This document shows, piece after piece, positions 31,333-63,771 of a stretch of DNA of 64,000 nt. Below the pieces are notes generated by a model. It was not told where the DNA came from and did no database searches. It worked only from the letters and a program-made list of their open reading frames with translations. The translations under genes and the position numbers were made by a program. Source of the stretch: Acheta domesticus (Eukaryota; Arthropoda; Insecta; Orthoptera; Gryllidae); contig JAHLJT010009419.1 of the NCBI GenBank assembly GCA_031308135.1, positions 34,086,540 through 34,150,539 of the forward strand, read 5' to 3'. How positions within the stretch are numbered: the first letter of the stretch is position 1; each line of letters begins with the position of its first letter.

Positions 31333-32454
31333 GTATTCTGTGTGTTGAGAACCATAAATCCATTTCAAACTAATGTTAATATTCTTAAAAATCTCCATCC
31401 AGTTTGTGTGTTGAGAACCATAAACCCATTTCAAACTAATGTTAATATTCTTAAAAATCTCCATCCAGTCTGTGTGTTGAGAACCATAAACCCATTTCAA
31501 ACTAATGTTAATATTCTTAAAAATCTCCATCCAGTCTGTGTGTTGAGAACCATAAACCCATTTCAAACTAATGTCAATATTCTTAAAAATCTCCATCCAG
31601 TCTGTGTGTTGAGAACCATAAACCCATTTGAAACTAATGTTAATATTCTTAAAAATCTCCATCCAGTCTGTGTGTTGAGAACCATAAATCCATTTCAAAC
31701 TAATGTTAATATTCTTAAAAATCTCCATCCATTCTGTGTGTTGAGAACCATAAACCCATTTCAAACTAATGTTAATATTCTTAAAAATCTCCATCCAGTC
31801 TGTGTGTTGAGAACCATAAACCCATTTCAAACTAATGTTAATATTCTTAAAAATCTCCATCCATTCTGTGTGTTGAGAACCATAAATCCATTTCAAACTA
31901 ATGTTAATATTCTTAAAAATCTCCATCCAGTCTGTGTGTTGAGAACCATAAACACATTTCAAACTAATGTCAATATTCTTAAAAATCTCCATCCAGTCTG
32001 TGTGTTGAGAACCATAAACCCATTTCAAACTAATGTTAATATTCTTAAAAATTTCCATCCAGTCTGTGCGTTGAGAACCATAAATCCATTTCAAACTAAT
32101 GTTAATATTCTTAAAAATCTCCATCCATTCTGTGTGTTGAGAACCATAAACCCATTTCAAACTAATGTTAATATTCTTAAAAATCTCCATCCAGTCTGTG
32201 TGTTGAGAACCATAAATCCATTTCAAACTAATGTTAATATTCTTAAAAATCTCCATCCATTCTGTGTGTTGAGAACCATAAACCCATTTCAAACTAATGT
32301 TAATATTCTTAAAAATCTCCATCCATTCTGTGTGTTGAGAACCATAAATCCATTTCAAACTAATGTTAATATTCTTAAAAATCTCCATCCAGTCTGTGTG
32401 TTGAGAACCATAAACCCATTTCAAACTAATGTTAATATTCTTAAAAATCTCCAT
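31333..32454 (+). repeat. 66-bp minisatellite, 17 copies
   Basis: Unit starts TCTGTGTGTTGAGAACCATA and ends ATCTCCATCCAG. Copies differ at a few diagnostic sites (aaaCcc/aaaTcc, ccaG/ccaT, gTtaat/gTcaat). Because 66 is divisible by 3 and the unit lacks stops in one frame of each strand, long frames appear on both: plus 31276-32523 (22-residue period with NPFQTNVNILKNLHP) and minus 30847-32472 (period MEIFKNINISLKWVYGSQHT). Substitutions include silent and amino-acid-changing ones in both. I treat it as non-coding. Confidence 0.95.
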
Positions 32455-42503: not shown

Positions 42504-42582
42504 GTGAGTTTCTTTTTTTTTGTACTTGTAAAACTAAAATTACAAACATCTGGGCTATTACCAACATTGTTTCTTCAATCAG
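42504..42582 (+). other. Candidate 79-bp intron in the 5' UTR
   Basis: A good donor (GTGAGT at 42504) and a pyrimidine-tract acceptor (TTTCTTCAATCAG ending 42582) lie just before the start codon. An in-frame TAA at 42584-42586 stays upstream of the ATG after splicing, so splicing would not add a presequence. Confidence 0.4.
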
Positions 42583-42598
42583 ATAATCCACAAGAGAA

Positions 42599-43423
42599 AT
42601 GTCTACTGTGAAGATGATTTCCCTTCAAGTGAAATCAATGAAGAATATACAAAAGATAGTGAAAACTATGAAAGTAGTGTCGGCAGCCAAGTATGCAAAA
42701 GCGAAAAAAGATCTTCTTGTTGCCCGACCTTACGGAAACAGCACTAAAGTGTTTTACGACAAACTTGATCTAAAAGATCCGCAAGAACAGACTCTGTTAA
42801 TTGCTATTACATCTGACAGAGGATTGTGTGGCGCTCTTCACAAAAATGTCTCCGTTAAAGTCAAGGAGGAATTTGCGAAACGTCCAGAAAATTCCAAGAT
42901 AATTTGTGTGGGAGAAAAATCTCGGGGTTTACTGCAGGGGCAGTACGGTAGAAGTTTCCTGGGCGTTGCTGACCAAATTGGTCGCAAACCTCCGACCTTT
43001 CTTGATGCATCAAGAATAGCAAACATACTATTCTCATCTCCTTACAAATATACTTCGGGCAAAATAATATTCAACGAGTCAAAATCTGTGGTTTCATATT
43101 TAACTAGTGTTGTGCCTGTGTTCTCTTTGCGCACTCTAAACGCGGCTCCTGGGTTGCAAGTGTATGATTCTTTAGACGACGAAATTCTGCAAAGTTACTT
43201 AGAATTTTCAGTAACGTCCCTTCTGTTTTATGCCTTGAAAGAGGCAGCCACCAGCGAGCAGTCGTCTCGAGTGAATGCAATGGAGCAAGCCACCAAAACA
43301 TCAGGGAACATGATCCACTCGCTGACGATGACTCTCAACAAAAAACGACAGGCAGCCATCACGACAGAGTTGATTGAGATCATCTCCGGAGCAACGGCTG
43401 CCAAGCCAGACTCAGGAGTTTGA
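42599..43423 (+). CDS. ATPsyngamma: ATP synthase F1 gamma subunit-like protein, uninterrupted, no presequence
   Basis: 274 codons, no stop or shift. The gamma subunit is the rotating central stalk of mitochondrial ATP synthase, coupling proton flow to the catalytic hexamer. Visible hallmarks: the N-terminal coiled-coil helix (MKNIQKIVKTMKVVSAAKYA, residues about 14-33), the central AITSDRGLCGALH (about 69-81), PPTFLDASRIANI (about 129-141), VYDSLDDEILQSYLEF (about 187-202), and the C-terminal helix (SSRVNAMEQATKTSGNMI, then RQAAITTELIEIISGA). Both long helices of the rotor are present. The ATG corresponds to the start of the mature protein: the usual ~25-residue mitochondrial presequence is absent, and an in-frame stop sits 5 codons upstream. 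A single reading frame and divergence from the common insect sequence fit a retrocopy kept open by selection. Neighbours are only repeats. Poly(A) signals follow at 43725 and 43749. Confidence 0.9.
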   Translation: MSTVKMISLQVKSMKNIQKIVKTMKVVSAAKYAKAKKDLLVARPYGNSTKVFYDKLDLKDPQEQTLLIAITSDRGLCGALHKNVSVKVKEEFAKRPENSKIICVGEKSRGLLQGQYGRSFLGVADQIGRKPPTFLDASRIANILFSSPYKYTSGKIIFNESKSVVSYLTSVVPVFSLRTLNAAPGLQVYDSLDDEILQSYLEFSVTSLLFYALKEAATSEQSSRVNAMEQATKTSGNMIHSLTMTLNKKRQAAITTELIEIISGATAAKPDSGV

Positions 43424-43724
43424 ACTACGTACGCTTATCCAAGTCATGAAGATTTTGGTGTGCCAGAAACTCAAGGTTTTCTTCAGATAGCTTTTCTTTA
43501 CAATGCATTACCTTTTCTTCTCACATTCGTACGACTAAAATAGGACAATTATTATTTTCTAGTTGGTTGTAAAAATATCGACTATAACATTTATTTGTAA
43601 ATCTCTACCAACGTGTAAAGATCATTCTGAATTTACAAAAAATTTCATTGGGATTTAAAGTCTATTCCTGAACACGCACAGTTATCAAAAATAATCGATG
43701 GGAAGATGATGAACATCATTTTAC

Positions 43725-43754
43725 AATAAAATACAATGTTTTTGCTTCAATAAA
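43725..43754 (+). terminator. Polyadenylation signals of the ATP synthase gamma-like gene
   Basis: AATAAA at 43725-43730 and again at 43749-43754, about 300-330 bases after the stop codon. The A-rich AATAAAAATAAAT that follows might be the decayed poly(A) tail of a retrocopy. Confidence 0.5.
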
Positions 43755-43785
43755 GGTTGAATTTTAATAAAAATAAATGTATCTA

Positions 43786-43872
43786 ATAAGTCAATAACCT
43801 CCTCTAACCCTAAGCAGGATAATCCTGCAGCACTAAAGTGCAAAGGGTAAATTAATTAATAAGTCAATAACT
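43786..43872. repeat. Short insertion flanked by a 14-bp direct repeat
   Basis: AATAAGTCAATAAC occurs at 43786-43799 and 43859-43872, bracketing 59 bases that include CAGGATAATCCTG, a small palindrome. It looks like a target-site duplication around a truncated retro-insertion. Confidence 0.5.
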
Positions 43873-43924
43873 TCCAAATTCGATCAATGAACAACATCTT
43901 TCAATTTTAATTTATGCAAATTAA

Positions 43925-44525
43925 ATGTAACATCCTTAAATATCTTTGCACTATCCGACAACAAAATTTAATCAAAAACGAATTAGCCATTTTTTAAAAA
44001 TTTGGACAATATCCCTGGAGCTCCATGTAAAGTATCCACCACAATTAACCCAGATAGTGCTGAATTTTTTTTCTTGGAAATTGAGTTATATGATATTAGA
44101 AATCTGCAATGAGATTATAAGGAAGAAAGTAAAAACAATTTTAAGTTTGTATTGTTGTTAGTATTGATATAATTTTTTAATGTATTTATTCTAGCTTGGC
44201 CATTGGCCCTCTGCAGTCGCATGAGGTAAATATATTAGTATTAGATATATACATAGATAATATTCTAGTTTTAGATATTAATATCGTGCTTATACGATTT
44301 ATAATGAGAAAAGACTAATCAGTTCTAGTCTATGGGGGATCGAAAAATTCTCTTGGTAGCCTTCTTTTTAATCTTCTGCGATGAGGATTTTGCAATGACA
44401 GTGAATGGCGGAAGGGATCTTTTGGGATAGAATTTTGCGACTAAGAGTTTTTCTGCTGAAAATTCGCCTTTTTTTCTGCTCACCATTACATAACTTCCTC
44501 TCTACTCTGTGGCGAGAAAGTAAAA
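43925..44525 (+). repeat. Family A interspersed repeat, copy 8 (3' part, interrupted)
   Basis: Shares ATCCGACAACAAAATTTAAT and AAAACGAATTAGCCATTTTT with copy 3 (23035-23080) and ends GGCGAGAAAGTAAAAAG. From about 44070 to 44440 the sequence does not match and contains a LINE-type 3' end (CTAGCTTGGCCATTGGCCCT). Confidence 0.6.
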
Positions 44526-47533: not shown

Positions 47534-47726
47534 CTACAGACATCTGACTTATTTTCCTAAAGAGCGCTTTGAAGTTGGACAAAAATGATTAGCTGATTAT
47601 ATTTGATTGAAACAAGTATGTTTAAATATGATCAAGAACGGGTTTTCTACACTGTCATAAATGTCCGGATTACTTCAATGCAATGTACGTAAATGTAATT
47701 GCAATGAACGTACATAAAATTTAATG

Positions 47727-47958
47727 TATATAAATTTATTTCACTTATAATCAATAAGGTAAGCTTCCTAATTTAGTCCCTTCTGCTTGCTTGGCAAATT
47801 TTCTCATGTACAACATCTAAATAGTTTTATATTTCAATATTTAATTGCCTTGTAATTTTATCTTATTGTAGTTATGTATTACTCACTTGATGGAGACACA
47901 AGAGTTCTCCGAAACGTCCTCCTAATGTATTACTCGTTCACTTTACATTTGCAGACGG
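47727..47958 (+). repeat. Left arm of a perfect 232-bp inverted repeat
   Basis: Base-for-base reverse complement of 48374-48605 as far as I can read. Contains TTGATGGAGA...TCTCCGAAACGTCC at 47888-47923, the stem-plus-GAAACGT(C/T) motif of Penelope-like ends. The 415-base spacer shows no gene. Confidence 0.95.
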
Positions 47959-48373: not shown

Positions 48374-48605
48374 CCGTCTGCAAATGTAAAGTGAACGAGT
48401 AATACATTAGGAGGACGTTTCGGAGAACTCTTGTGTCTCCATCAAGTGAGTAATACATAACTACAATAAGATAAAATTACAAGGCAATTAAATATTGAAA
48501 TATAAAACTATTTAGATGTTGTACATGAGAAAATTTGCCAAGCAAGCAGAAGGGACTAAATTAGGAAGCTTACCTTATTGATTATAAGTGAAATAAATTT
48601 ATATA
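48374..48605 (-). repeat. Right arm of the perfect 232-bp inverted repeat
   Basis: In minus sense this arm lies directly downstream of the GIY-YIG region of Penelope-like element 1 (48700-50230), so it is probably that element's terminal repeat, and the left arm its inverted partner. Perfect identity suggests a recent event or conversion between the arms. Confidence 0.95.
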
Positions 48606-48699
48606 AATAATGTGAGACCTAATGTTACGTATTATATACATTATAATATTATGAATATAATGCGTAGCATGAGACCTAACGTATTAGTGAAATAATTAC

Positions 48700-49398
48700 T
48701 TTCTACCATAGTGTTCATAGATTAATATAACTTTATATGTAGAGTTTCAGAAACCATTCGGGGAAATTTTCTGTTTTCAACATCTACACTATTGACATTA
48801 TCAAAATTCCGTTTTTATTCTGTGACTCGTGGCAGAATTCTGTCTGTTCGGAGTTTTCCTATATTCCTCATATGTTTTTTAATTCTTGTAAATAACTTCC
48901 TTTTGTTCTGTCCTACGTAACATTCATCACAATTCTGACAAGCAATTTTATAAACAATGTTTTCTTTTTCCTTATAAAGTATGCCATCTTTACATTTAAT
49001 AACATTTATTTTATTTAAAATCTTATATCTAACCTAGAATTTATCATTGAATCTCTTTTTTATGTCTCTTTGGATTCTATTAGTAATTTCCAGTTCATAG
49101 GGAATCACTAAATTCGAAATGTCATTATTAGAACCATTATTCCTAATTGTATCATTATCTACCAAAATTTGGTTATTAACTTTCTTACAGTAATTTGACC
49201 TTTTTTAATAAACTTCTTAATAATTTTTCTAGGGTAATCATTGGTTGGTTCTCAATGATATCCAGATTACTTTTATGATTCTCCTCCTGCGAAATGTACA
49301 TTATTCTATCAATCATCCCATAAATATGTCCAATTTTCATCGCGGTCGGGTGTCCAGATTTGTAATTCAAGGTATGGCTAGTAGTCTTCTCCTTTTTT

Positions 49399-49431
<33 letters not shown>

Positions 49432-50230
49432 TTAAATTCTGGCCCTCAAGAAAATGTGCGCAGATAAATTTTTTCCCCACACGTCATATACAGTTTTTAC
49501 TGTTTTTTGACAAATAAATAAATAAATAGAAATAAATTTTTGTTAACAGTCTTTATTGCATTATCTTCTCCAGTGATTTTTATATCCAAATAATTTAATT
49601 GAAAATTGTTTTCTAGTTCAATAGTGAATTGAATTTTTGTTTCATATTTATTGCATTTTTCCAAAATCTCATTCGTTTTATCTTTATGTATTATCATGAA
49701 TATGTCAACAATCTGTAAAAATATGTCTGTTTGGGGTAAAACAGATCTTTCCATTTCCCTGATGACAATCCCTGGTACCATCTACTTGGCGAAAAATTAA
49801 ATTATTGAATGTAAATCCAATGCTCGACAAAATACAACAAACAATGGTAATAATTTCATGTTTGGGGATGGAAATCAAATCATTTCCTTCGAGAGCTTCA
49901 CTTAAACTCTCAATGATACTGGGAAACATTCCAATGATATCTAAGGACGCTAAAATATGATTAGCAGGTATTCTTATTCCATTAATTTGAGTTACTAATT
50001 CCCTTCTATTAAGAACCACATGTTGTGAATTTAATTTAAGTAATGGTTTTAAAACTATTTTTAAGTATTTACACACTTCGTATTGAGGCATCCCAATACT
50101 AGAAACCACCGGCCTCATCGGTAAGTCAGGTTTGTGAGCCTTGATAAGCCCATTCGCTCTGGAGACATTACCAGTTGTAGGGTATATTTTGTAATATGAG
50201 TCATTATCAATAAAAAGAAGGCAGTGTTTT
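48700..50230 (-). mobile_element. Penelope-like element 1: reverse transcriptase plus GIY-YIG nuclease, degenerate
   Basis: In minus order: ANGLIKAHKPDLPMRPVVSS (reverse transcriptase entry, about 50160-50100), SLDIIGMFPSI (motif A with its aspartate), FTFNNLIFRQVDGT, a shortened stretch where the next conserved block should be, DIFMIIHKDKTNEILEKC (the YVDD box reduced to IVDI), QFTIELENNFQLNYLDIKI, then after a LINE insertion NYKSGHPTAMKIGHIYGMID and VYKIACQNCDECYVGQNKRK with RIKKHMRNIGKL, the GIY-YIG nuclease. Damaged catalytic box and shifts make it inactive. The 5' end is truncated near 50230. Confidence 0.88.
49396..49530 (+). mobile_element. LINE tail inserted into Penelope-like element 1, preceded by (TC)n
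   Basis: A (TC)n run (49398-49424) and T-tract precede AATTCTGGCCCTCAAGAAAA, CACACGTCATATACAGTTTT and GACAAATAAATAAATAAA. The same segment occurs at 47333-47415 (+) and in minus sense at 56155-56250 (end of LINE B). It separates the Penelope-like pieces LDIKI...NKNLF and NYKSGHP. Confidence 0.8.
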
Positions 50231-50560
50231 ATAGGTCTTAGTGAAGTGCAGTGCAGTGTGATCCTAATTGTATAAACATTCAGTGCGGAGTTAGACTATA
50301 GAACTTTTTTTTTCTCTTAATGTAATTTAATGTTTTTCGTCAGTCAGTTTTTATTATAATCATTATTTTACCATTATTATTAGTATTATTATATAAAATG
50401 TTAGTTATATTACCTTATTATTATTATTAGTAGTAGTAGTAGTAGTAGCATTATTAGTATTATATGTTACTGAGAGACTGTGTTTTTCCATGTTTTTGTA
50501 ATTAACTGCCATCGGGTTATACCCAATTGCAGTTTAAATAAATTTACCTTATTTTATATT
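50231..50560. repeat. TTA/TAG-rich microsatellite and LINE 3' end
   Basis: ATT/TTA units near 50371-50430, then (TAG)n at 50429-50450. GCCATCGGGTTATACCCAAT followed by TTTAAATAAATTTACC at 50508-50548 is typical of a LINE 3' hairpin and tail. Confidence 0.5.
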
Positions 50561-61600: not shown

Positions 61601-63190
61601 TTCTGAACCGCTGTGACACTATCACAACTTCTTCATAATGCTTACATTCGTACAAAGTACAGTTCGATGTCTACAACTCAGGGTATTCCTTTTCACATGA
61701 TCATGTCTGTAACTGGCTAAAAATTAGATGGATTAGATTTTTCAAACAGAAGTCTTTTATAAATAAGTACAAGTAAACCTTAAATCAAGACATTGGTTTC
61801 TATACAGTAAACTTCCTAACCTTCAGTGGATGAGGAAGAACTAGGATTTTCAAGAACGTATATATGCTGGTTATTCTCAACAACGGAAGGTTAATGAGAA
61901 GACACAGGATATGCTTGATTTCTTTCCATCCATTTTAAACATTAATCAAGCATATTTCACTGATCTGCTGGTAGGAACCTGAGGATTTCAAGAAGATGAA
62001 GAAAACTGAATGTGTCTCAACAATAACATTAAATTTAATATTTAATCTGTTTTAATAAATCGATATTGGTATTTTCAACTTTTCTTAGAACGACATCTAT
62101 CGATTTAGCTCACCAACCGCATTTTTACGATGGTATAACTCCTTTACACTCCCAATATTCTGCTAAGCACACAGTATGCTTATATCTTCAGACACAAGTA
62201 AATATCTTATTGGAGAAAACACACACAATTATTTGTCTAACCCCATCCCCGATTTTTTTACAATAATTTAACTTTAGAGCTCAATATCTCAAAACTGGTG
62301 TCAATGGAGGTGTACCATTATTAAAATAATGCCTCCATTGTAAACGGTTTTCGGAATTCATTGTTCTCACAGTTATTACTTTTGAGCAATTTTATTTTGT
62401 AGCATACAGAAGTAGTGCTTACGAGTGATTTTCATTCAGTTGAGTAAAATATTTGCATACATTCATTCACAGCATAACATTTATTCCATGAAAATTCTAT
62501 TTATAATTACATTATTAATTTAAATACAAAAATTTCAATATTTTATTTGAAATTACAAAAGAAAGAAAGCCAGAAAAAGTAATTTAGGTCATTTATATTA
62601 TTTTAGTTCAGAAATAAACAAATGAAAAACATTATCGAATTACCGGTATATTTTATATCAAAGCATCAAACTGTTTTAAATAAAATTTAAAATACTAACA
62701 TTTCAATTTTAGATAGGTACCAAACGATTTGGTTAGTTTTTGACTTTGCAATGGTCTGACATTTATTCAACCACATAATGTTTTTATTTACTTCTTTGTT
62801 TGAAATACATATATTATTCAAGTAAATGACAGTTCAGTTTCTACAGGAACTACCAGGGTAATTTTCAATTTTAAAAATAAATTTTGTATCTTCTCTTTGA
62901 AGCTTCCGATAAAGCCAAAGAAAATATTTTACCTTTCAGGAGTATTTTAAAAACGACCGGAAACTCATTGTTGTTGAAACAATGAGTCACTTGCCAAAAC
63001 ATTAACCCAACGTAACAAGTTACACCCTAAGATGAAGGTCATTTAAAAAACCGGAACCGAGGCATTTAGCACAATATATAACGAAATAAAAGCGTTACAA
63101 AGGTTTTCATTGTTACCTTTTCGGTTTTGTGTACTGTTTAGTTCGTTTTGTTTCAAATATTGCTTTTTAATTCGTGTCAATGCACCGGAA
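61601..63190. other. Receptor intron, AT-rich
   Basis: No gene. Small hairpins: AATGGAGG/CCTCCATT around 62304-62340 and ACTCATTGTT/AACAATGAGT around 62966-62990. Confidence 0.4.
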
Positions 63191-63196
63191 TGAAAC

Positions 63197-63457
63197 ATGT
63201 GCTATTCCAAACCTTGCGCGCCAGGGCGTAGGCCACCGGATCTTCGTGTTGCCCGATGTGGGAGATCGCCTCCGCCGTCACTCTGGTGGAGTACACCACG
63301 TCATACAGGGCGTTCACCTGAGCTAGTGTGTCCACCTGCGCCTCCTGGGTCGGCGCCACCAGCGACCCCACCAGCGACCCGCTGAACGCGTTCATCACCA
63401 CGAAGCTGAACACGCTCAGCCACACCATCAGCCGGCGCTGAGCGGTCGCGAAGCCTC
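63197..63457 (-). CDS. Ionotropic receptor exon with third membrane segment (partial gene)
   Basis: Acceptor TAATCACAG ending at 63458; the exon begins with two bases of a split codon and reads GFATAQRRLMVWLSVFSFVV, the third channel helix following the conserved R/W, then MNAFSGSLVGSLVAPTQEAQ and VDTLAQVNALYDVVYST, the classic start of S2 ('Y.g.L.s.L..p....pi.tl..l'), and DPVAYALARKVWNST. The donor is either AAG|GTTTGG (63213, phase 0) or T|GTTTCA (63197, phase 1); only the second joins in frame to the exon at 60153-60235. GC-rich like the last exon. Exons for the N-terminus, pore loop and first two membrane helices should lie beyond 64000. Confidence 0.8.
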
Positions 63458-63771
63458 CTGTGATTAGGGATGGCAACGATGGAAATTGTTTCAAACACCG
63501 GTACTTTTCTTTGGAATTACGACTACAAATTACAGTTCTTATGAATGTTGTTTTCTTACGAAATTTTACATATTTTGAAAAACTAAAAACACTTGAAAAA
63601 ATATGATTACTACTGTAGTTGCCGTTTTTCTTTCTACGCGACTGTCAAAAAAAATTAATGGGATAATGTACTATATGTTTTCTTTTGCGTTTGTGTCATT
63701 TTGCACATTCTGAGTCTCTCATCACCTTCTATCCTTAATACTCTCCAAATCCCTCGGCCTATCTGATAATT
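63458..63771. other. Receptor intron, AT-rich
   Basis: No feature seen. Confidence 0.4.

Follow-up and report, generated by a model that had tools for sequence, protein, structure and literature searches.

An intact, divergent second gene for the gamma subunit of mitochondrial F1-ATPase in crickets, with no presequence in its readable frame

Can a frame that lacks the presequence usual in its family still be a working gene for the shaft of the mitochondrial F1-ATPase? The question is raised by a 64,000-nucleotide stretch of the Acheta domesticus genome (the window), in which a 274-codon frame closed by TGA runs along the forward strand without a single internal stop. A preliminary description had taken this frame for a retrocopy of the ATP synthase gamma gene, intact, divergent and probably selected, starting exactly at the mature protein with a stop just upstream. 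The features of the locus are collected in Table 1.

Table 1. Features at and around the second gamma gene (positions within the window)
Feature	Position	Strand	Basis or remark
Second F1 gamma coding sequence	42599..43423	+	274 aa + TGA; profile matches; Gryllus bimaculatus counterpart; dN/dS ~0.10
C-terminal extension, codons 270-274	43406..43420	+	five residues past the main protein end; low model confidence
Upstream in-frame TAA	42584..42586	+	-15 to -13 from the ATG; frame opens at 42587
Putative presequence-end remnant	42590..42598	+	TRE versus VRG in the main gene; 6/9 nt identical, binomial P = 0.015
Candidate 5' UTR intron, 79 nt	42504..42582	+	GTGAGT ... TTTCTTCAATCAG; donor/acceptor quality
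Basic N-terminal helix, codons 1-40	42599..42718	+	residues 1-37 free of acidic side chains; putative uncleaved signal for import
Four AATAAA, candidate polyadenylation signals	43725, 43749, 43766, 43772 (43725..43777)	+	sequence
Start of dispersed repeat, bounding the single-copy 3' flank	43795..43862	+	begins 372 nt after the second gamma; 40 or more other copies at 92-100% identity

The frame matches F1 gamma family profiles over its full length. The Pfam ATP-synt profile (PF00231) covers residues 4 to 267 with an E value of 1.4e-63 and 215.7 bits against a cut-off of 39.9, and the NCBIfam profile TIGR01146 gives 205 bits, above its cut-off of 194.45. The best match in a sequence search of the PDB is the Artemia gamma chain 9b0x_G (E = 2.5e-85), which is also the top Foldseek match (TM 0.85) of an AlphaFold prediction with a mean pLDDT of 86.8; the modelled protein has the layout of a gamma subunit, in which long helices (residues 2-56 and 194-262) flank an alpha/beta domain. 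Four residues, R250, Q251, T255 and E257, are invariant in 37 of 37 alignment rows, second copies included; by bovine numbering, they belong to the C-terminal helix that contacts beta. The protein is 59% identical to the main gamma of Acheta and co-linear with it except for one in-frame two-codon gap and the C-terminal extension. A counterpart model from Gryllus bimaculatus, itself partial, likewise extends three residues past the C-terminus of the main protein. With a frame open throughout, a family match and co-linearity with the main gene, the locus is indeed intact, and at 59% identity it is indeed divergent. The genome thus has a genuine second gene that encodes the central rotor shaft of the mitochondrial F1-ATPase.

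Did this gene arise by retroposition? A genome search for gamma in Acheta domesticus returned three matches, namely the second gamma (scaffold C6147, of which the window spans 34086540-34150539), the main gene (C6096) and a bacterial-type gene (C2070). The main gene (C6096:78383785-78384594, reverse strand) and the second gamma are thus unlinked. The main product of 293 amino acids, which carries the presequence MLGRFGPVLPLLGQHQQQQVRG, is encoded in a single uninterrupted frame (open frame 318 aa), and a check of the main gene for introns found no interruption within its coding region. Because the parent is intronless there, the lack of introns in the second gamma tells nothing about its origin, and retroposition cannot be inferred from it. 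Around the second gamma, the longest word shared in a search for a target-site duplication had 9 nt (P = 0.62), 43401-44400 held no stretch of seven or more A, and similarity to the main gene in the 3' untranslated region was not significant (P = 0.13). Old retrocopies are expected to lose both the target-site duplication and the poly-A tract. Of the usual marks of a retrogene, the gene therefore has an unlinked position and purifying selection, and neither an intron-containing parent nor a target-site duplication or poly-A tract. The label of retrocopy, as it had been argued, is not supported, since the main coding region, presequence included, is likewise uninterrupted and no target-site duplication was found; the separate scaffold and the missing presequence would fit a 5'-truncated retrocopy without proving one. 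In Drosophila melanogaster, too, gamma is listed with one coding exon (PMC551531, Table 1).

The third match of the gamma search touches the assembly itself. Contig C2070 (1,452,284 bp) carries a bacterial-type atpA-atpG-atpD cluster (L003, 1-3684) within this insect assembly, so a symbiont or contaminant contig seems still to be present in it.

The preliminary description had called every neighbor of the second gamma decayed. Pfam scans of ten neighboring open reading frames, out of 36 of at least 120 amino acids listed, left six without a match; the other four had one at E <= 0.01, which passed the profile cut-off for RVT_1 and DDE_3 and fell short of it for zf-RVT and THAP. A 66-bp minisatellite at 31337-32454 (16.9 copies, 96%) has a 22-codon unit that keeps frames of 418 and 543 amino acids open, one per strand, and these frames are probably not genes. 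What looks like a young foldback element is formed by an inverted repeat at 47724-47958 and 48374-48608, whose 235-nt arms lie 415 nt apart and are 100% identical or differ by one mismatch. On the reverse strand, 48815-50295 holds reverse-transcriptase-like and GIY-YIG-like pieces, which we take to resemble a decayed Penelope-like element, and the upper piece (49708-50295) has no Pfam match. The central part of a reverse-strand frame at 63180-63644 presumably resembles insect ionotropic receptors in their pore region; this frame has no Pfam match and no protein match among candidates of similar length. When it was used to look for synteny with Gryllus, none of 31 candidates reached E <= 0.001.

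Is the gene found beyond Acheta? The G. bimaculatus counterpart (P0002, labelled partial, 272 aa) is 89% identical, begins at the same Met and aligns without gaps over 272 residues. The next-best protein match is the ordinary gamma of G. bimaculatus (P0003), at 59% identity. The protein search scored 7997 candidates, 7581 of them at E <= 0.001, and a second search with a 155-residue profile was aimed at fragments; among the best 120 of 7581 and the best 120 of 5100, respectively, there was no further member of the second-gamma group. On these alignments the gene occurs in two gryllids at the least, namely Acheta domesticus and Gryllus bimaculatus.

The two second copies group together (support 100/100) in a tree built from 37 of the 121 proteins. 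Their clade has a long stem and is placed with P0003 and P0004, both cricket-like main copies, at support 78/99; the tree of all 121 proteins again sets the pair beside P0003. Five alternative placements gave AU p values from 0.042 to 0.356, and of these just the lowest, that with the katydid pair, is weakly rejected. Site 218 points the same way: of the other homologues compared, 117 of 117 have C there; P0003, P0004, the main gamma of Acheta and the Gryllus second copy have A, and the Acheta second gamma has T. The seven rare residues that homologue P0081 has in common with the second-copy pair count against an origin in the cricket lineage. Given the placement next to P0003 and the state of site 218, the most likely source of the second gamma is a duplication of the main gene within the cricket lineage. 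The best reading of these data is that it would be an old paralogue that predates the divergence of Acheta and Gryllus.

We now have several lines of evidence that the gene is constrained. Over 269 codons, the second and main gammas of Acheta differ at 82, 51 and 152 first, second and third codon positions, with pN 0.239, pS 0.732, dN 0.287 and dS 2.78, the last being saturated, for a ratio of about 0.10. If the synonymous divergence is split equally and nearly all of the protein change lies on the second branch, that branch's own dN/dS would be roughly 0.2. The suspected selection is thus supported, and the ratio near 1 that would have spoken against it is absent. Neutral drift was also simulated down to 62% identity, with the main protein of Gryllus written in randomly chosen synonymous codons as the starting point; on average 6.1 stops accumulated, and 0 of 400 runs remained stop-free. 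The pattern of change between the two crickets agrees. In the protein comparison, 29 of 272 residues differ between the second copies, and these differences are conservative: their BLOSUM62 scores average 0.72, where 2000 neutral simulations gave -0.38 (sd 0.31; P = 0.001). They fall at family-invariant sites in 8 of 29 cases against 12.8 expected (P = 0.043), and in four cases two nucleotides must have changed, where 0.96 such cases would be expected (P = 0.017).

It is still fair to ask whether an unselected copy, pseudogenised or very young, could have stayed open by chance. For the tip divergence alone, the probability of meeting no stop under neutrality is 0.14, which makes the open frame weak evidence of constraint over that interval. 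However, such a copy would not show a dN/dS of 0.10 with an excess at third positions, no simulated run stayed open along the stem, and a second genus has an open, co-linear counterpart; we regard this explanation as extremely improbable. The second gamma is under long-term purifying selection and is not a pseudogene. Its rate of evolution is also about six times that of the main gene: between Acheta and Gryllus, the main products differ in 5 of their 271 mature residues, or in 6 of all 293 (29/272 versus 5/271, Fisher P = 2e-5). Faster protein evolution than the parent is a trait of testis-biased OXPHOS duplicates. Differences of the second gamma from the Gryllus main protein P0003 become more frequent as sites become more variable: they affect 26 of 118 columns that are at least 98% conserved, and then 20/37, 33/68 and, in the most variable columns, 31/46. 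Among the positions listed are 36 conserved columns at which the second copies of both crickets share a non-consensus residue.

How would such a protein reach the matrix? The cleavable presequence usual in animal gammas is absent from the readable frame of the second gamma. Its initiating Met falls on the Met of the conserved motif RG-M-ATLK and immediately precedes the mature protein; bovine mature gamma begins at the A after that Met, which agrees with the PDB chain numbering. With its Met removed, the second gamma would therefore begin at the mature start. Both the lack of a presequence, as far as the readable frame goes, and the in-frame stop just upstream are as first described. The statement that the gene starts exactly at the mature protein stands in part: translation would start at the -1 Met, but similarity in the DNA runs about three codons farther upstream, into the putative presequence-end remnant. 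Two wider reconstructions were rejected. Past the final 7 nt, an alignment to a longer decayed presequence was unconvincing (P = 0.16 with window segments and 0.045 with shuffles as the reference). A presequence deletion with an inherited 5' intron, in which the main leader is joined to the presequence end, gave what looked like a good match to the upstream DNA of the copy, but not a significant one (P = 0.16 against window pieces, 0.36 against shuffles and 0.125 with randomisation of the leader only; 400 each).

A presequence could instead come from a spliced upstream exon, which would give the second gamma a normal cleavable leader. The candidate intron in Table 1 ends directly upstream of the gene, and in the main gamma, too, a CAG that resembles an acceptor lies 13 nt ahead of the start. 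Donor/acceptor pairs of equal quality occur in 4.5% (forward) and 2.5% (reverse) of 290-nt stretches of the window, by criteria chosen post hoc. However, splicing to the acceptor at 42582 leaves the TAA between the junction and the Met, in the same reading frame, and this upstream exon could therefore only be non-coding; the two remaining AGs before the start are weak acceptors by eye; and the Gryllus model, though labelled partial, begins at the same Met. An upstream exon that supplies a presequence is thus the less likely course, and as a full account of this gene we consider it very unlikely.

Could the protein then work elsewhere? A functional second gamma might act outside the mitochondrion, or as a regulator, for want of a presequence; the readable frame without a cleavable leader, the in-frame TAA upstream and the 36 shared non-consensus residues would all suit this idea. 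Against it, the putative beta-contact residues are unchanged in all 37 rows, the N-terminus has become more basic rather than less, and a second beta gene has been retained too. We know of no established role for gamma outside F1, and altogether we think this reading unlikely. We favor instead a mature N-terminus that would itself direct import; the gamma fold does not need a cleavable presequence. The net charge of the first 40 residues is +9 in the Acheta second gamma and +10 in that of Gryllus, against 7 to 9 in 119 homologues (median 8; 114 have 8), and the hydrophobic moment is 0.52 and 0.43, respectively, against 0.31 to 0.45. The Gryllus copy thus exceeds the homologues by one unit of charge and lies within their range of hydrophobic moment. 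Charge and moment are compatible with an uncleaved matrix signal, the shift being modest, above all for Gryllus.

The structural partner of gamma offers a further view. A search of the Acheta genome for the alpha/beta family gave 26 matches, including bacterial ones and multi-exon loci. Among these, the main beta (L019) has at least seven coding blocks on C5460, and an intact, intronless second beta (L010, 844-2574) lies on C2357 at about 29.28 Mb with a frame of 589 amino acids, 577 from the first Met. The two betas differ at 25 residues over 387 of 577 codons (~94% identity), poorly matching ends and stops having been dropped, with pN 0.059, pS 0.76 (saturated) and 37, 17 and 212 differences by codon position. 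The second beta is a clear retrogene and is strongly constrained. Its parent sits on the putative X scaffold of 304 Mb (C5460), and the second gamma is on another scaffold; the assignment follows a published statement that the 304-Mb scaffold of Acheta domesticus may belong to the X (PMC10136058).

Is there a whole second F1? The single epsilon match in the genome and the single F1 alpha-like locus (L017) among seven loci examined give no sign of a complete one. On C6096, about 446 kb separate the main gamma (78.38 Mb) from the sole epsilon match (78.83 Mb). A second gamma together with a second beta makes a partly separate F1 possible, and we offer this as a hypothesis suggested by the gene content. 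In a more specific form, crickets would have a germline F1-ATPase with its own gamma, without presequence and older than the split of Acheta and Gryllus, and its own beta, an old retrogene with a parent on the putative X, the two having co-evolved at the interface of shaft and catalytic subunits; we hold this to be doubtful. If it is true, the Drosophila theme of a testis-specific ATP synthase would reach the central shaft.

It is tempting to look to regulation for the tissue in which the second gamma is used. The main gamma has a full NRG motif, ATTACATAAT, at -427 and a core match at -83, whereas none was found within 1.4 kb upstream of the second gamma. Each gene also has one full motif downstream (main +1058, second gamma +1886), and chance alone would give about 0.05 full and 0.16 core motifs per kb. 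In the part of the published survey available to us, 214 of 215 insect OXPHOS duplicates keep the NRG motif at one paralogue only, and gamma orthologues in the species covered carry merely a variant motif (PMC2241641). Because of this variant motif, the chance rate and the downstream motifs in both genes, the difference between the two cricket genes lends weak support to divergent regulation. The literature matches listed held no expression data for the cricket second gamma.

The Drosophila duplicates provide the closest guide. As reported in the accessible part of one study, 97 of 100 ESTs from OXPHOS duplicates of D. melanogaster came from testis libraries (PMC551531), and the testis-enriched ATP synthase paralogues named in the portion available of another are d (knon), F6, b, g, epsilon and beta (PMC5364652), with 0 occurrences of gamma in that text. 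By analogy, the second gamma is probably tissue-restricted and perhaps has a role in the testis (sperm). A general second gamma, used in all tissues for dosage or stress, would be in keeping with a sequence that itself demands no tissue restriction. However, 59% identity to the main gene and the lack of an upstream NRG motif fit divergent regulation, and the testis origin of the Drosophila ESTs likewise speaks against general use; we rate this option as quite unlikely.

Altogether, we favor an account in which the main gamma was duplicated, the copy came to lie on another scaffold and its cleavable presequence was lost, after which purifying selection has retained the copy, whose rate of evolution has been about six times that of the main gene. 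The protein would reach the matrix by means of its basic, amphipathic N-terminal helix, acting as an uncleaved signal, and would replace the ordinary gamma in a restricted tissue, the male germline if Drosophila is a guide; there it may pair with the second beta. Taken as a whole, this account seems to us slightly on the probable side.

How does the gene compare with known systems? Its nearest relatives are the main gammas of the crickets (L002 in Acheta, P0003 in Gryllus), with which it agrees in family, fold and, for Acheta, an uninterrupted coding region; it differs from them in the features given above, that is, 59% identity, no presequence, the two-codon gap, five extra C-terminal residues, a roughly sixfold rate and no upstream NRG motif. 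The second beta of Acheta is likewise an intact and constrained second copy, of the subunit that is gamma's direct structural partner. In contrast to gamma, the beta copy is a clear retrogene, about 94% identical to its parent over 387 codons, and has kept a long N-terminal part ahead of its conserved core. The testis-enriched ATP synthase paralogues of Drosophila are also diverged, faster-evolving and unlinked second copies. They differ in that the set, as given in the part of that paper available, comprises d, F6, b, g, epsilon and beta without gamma, and loss of a presequence is not mentioned there (PMC5364652). The insect nuclear OXPHOS duplicates, to judge from the available part of their survey, share with the cricket pair an intact frame and, more tentatively, an NRG motif upstream of one paralogue only, gamma orthologues being the exception with a variant motif (PMC2241641). 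None of the literature matches listed describes a second cricket gamma, in a search that most subscription papers lie outside.

The second gamma is best filed as a further member of the known group of diverged nuclear OXPHOS duplicates, unusual in that it concerns the rotor shaft and has lost the presequence. Some tissue-specific ATP synthase duplicates of Drosophila shape sperm mitochondria. A retained, fast-evolving second gamma puts duplication into the rotating shaft itself, in an insect order distant from Drosophila. It poses a clean test of whether the mature N-terminus of F1 gamma can direct import without a presequence, and the beta retrogene alongside it makes a specialised F1 an idea that can be tested in laboratory crickets.
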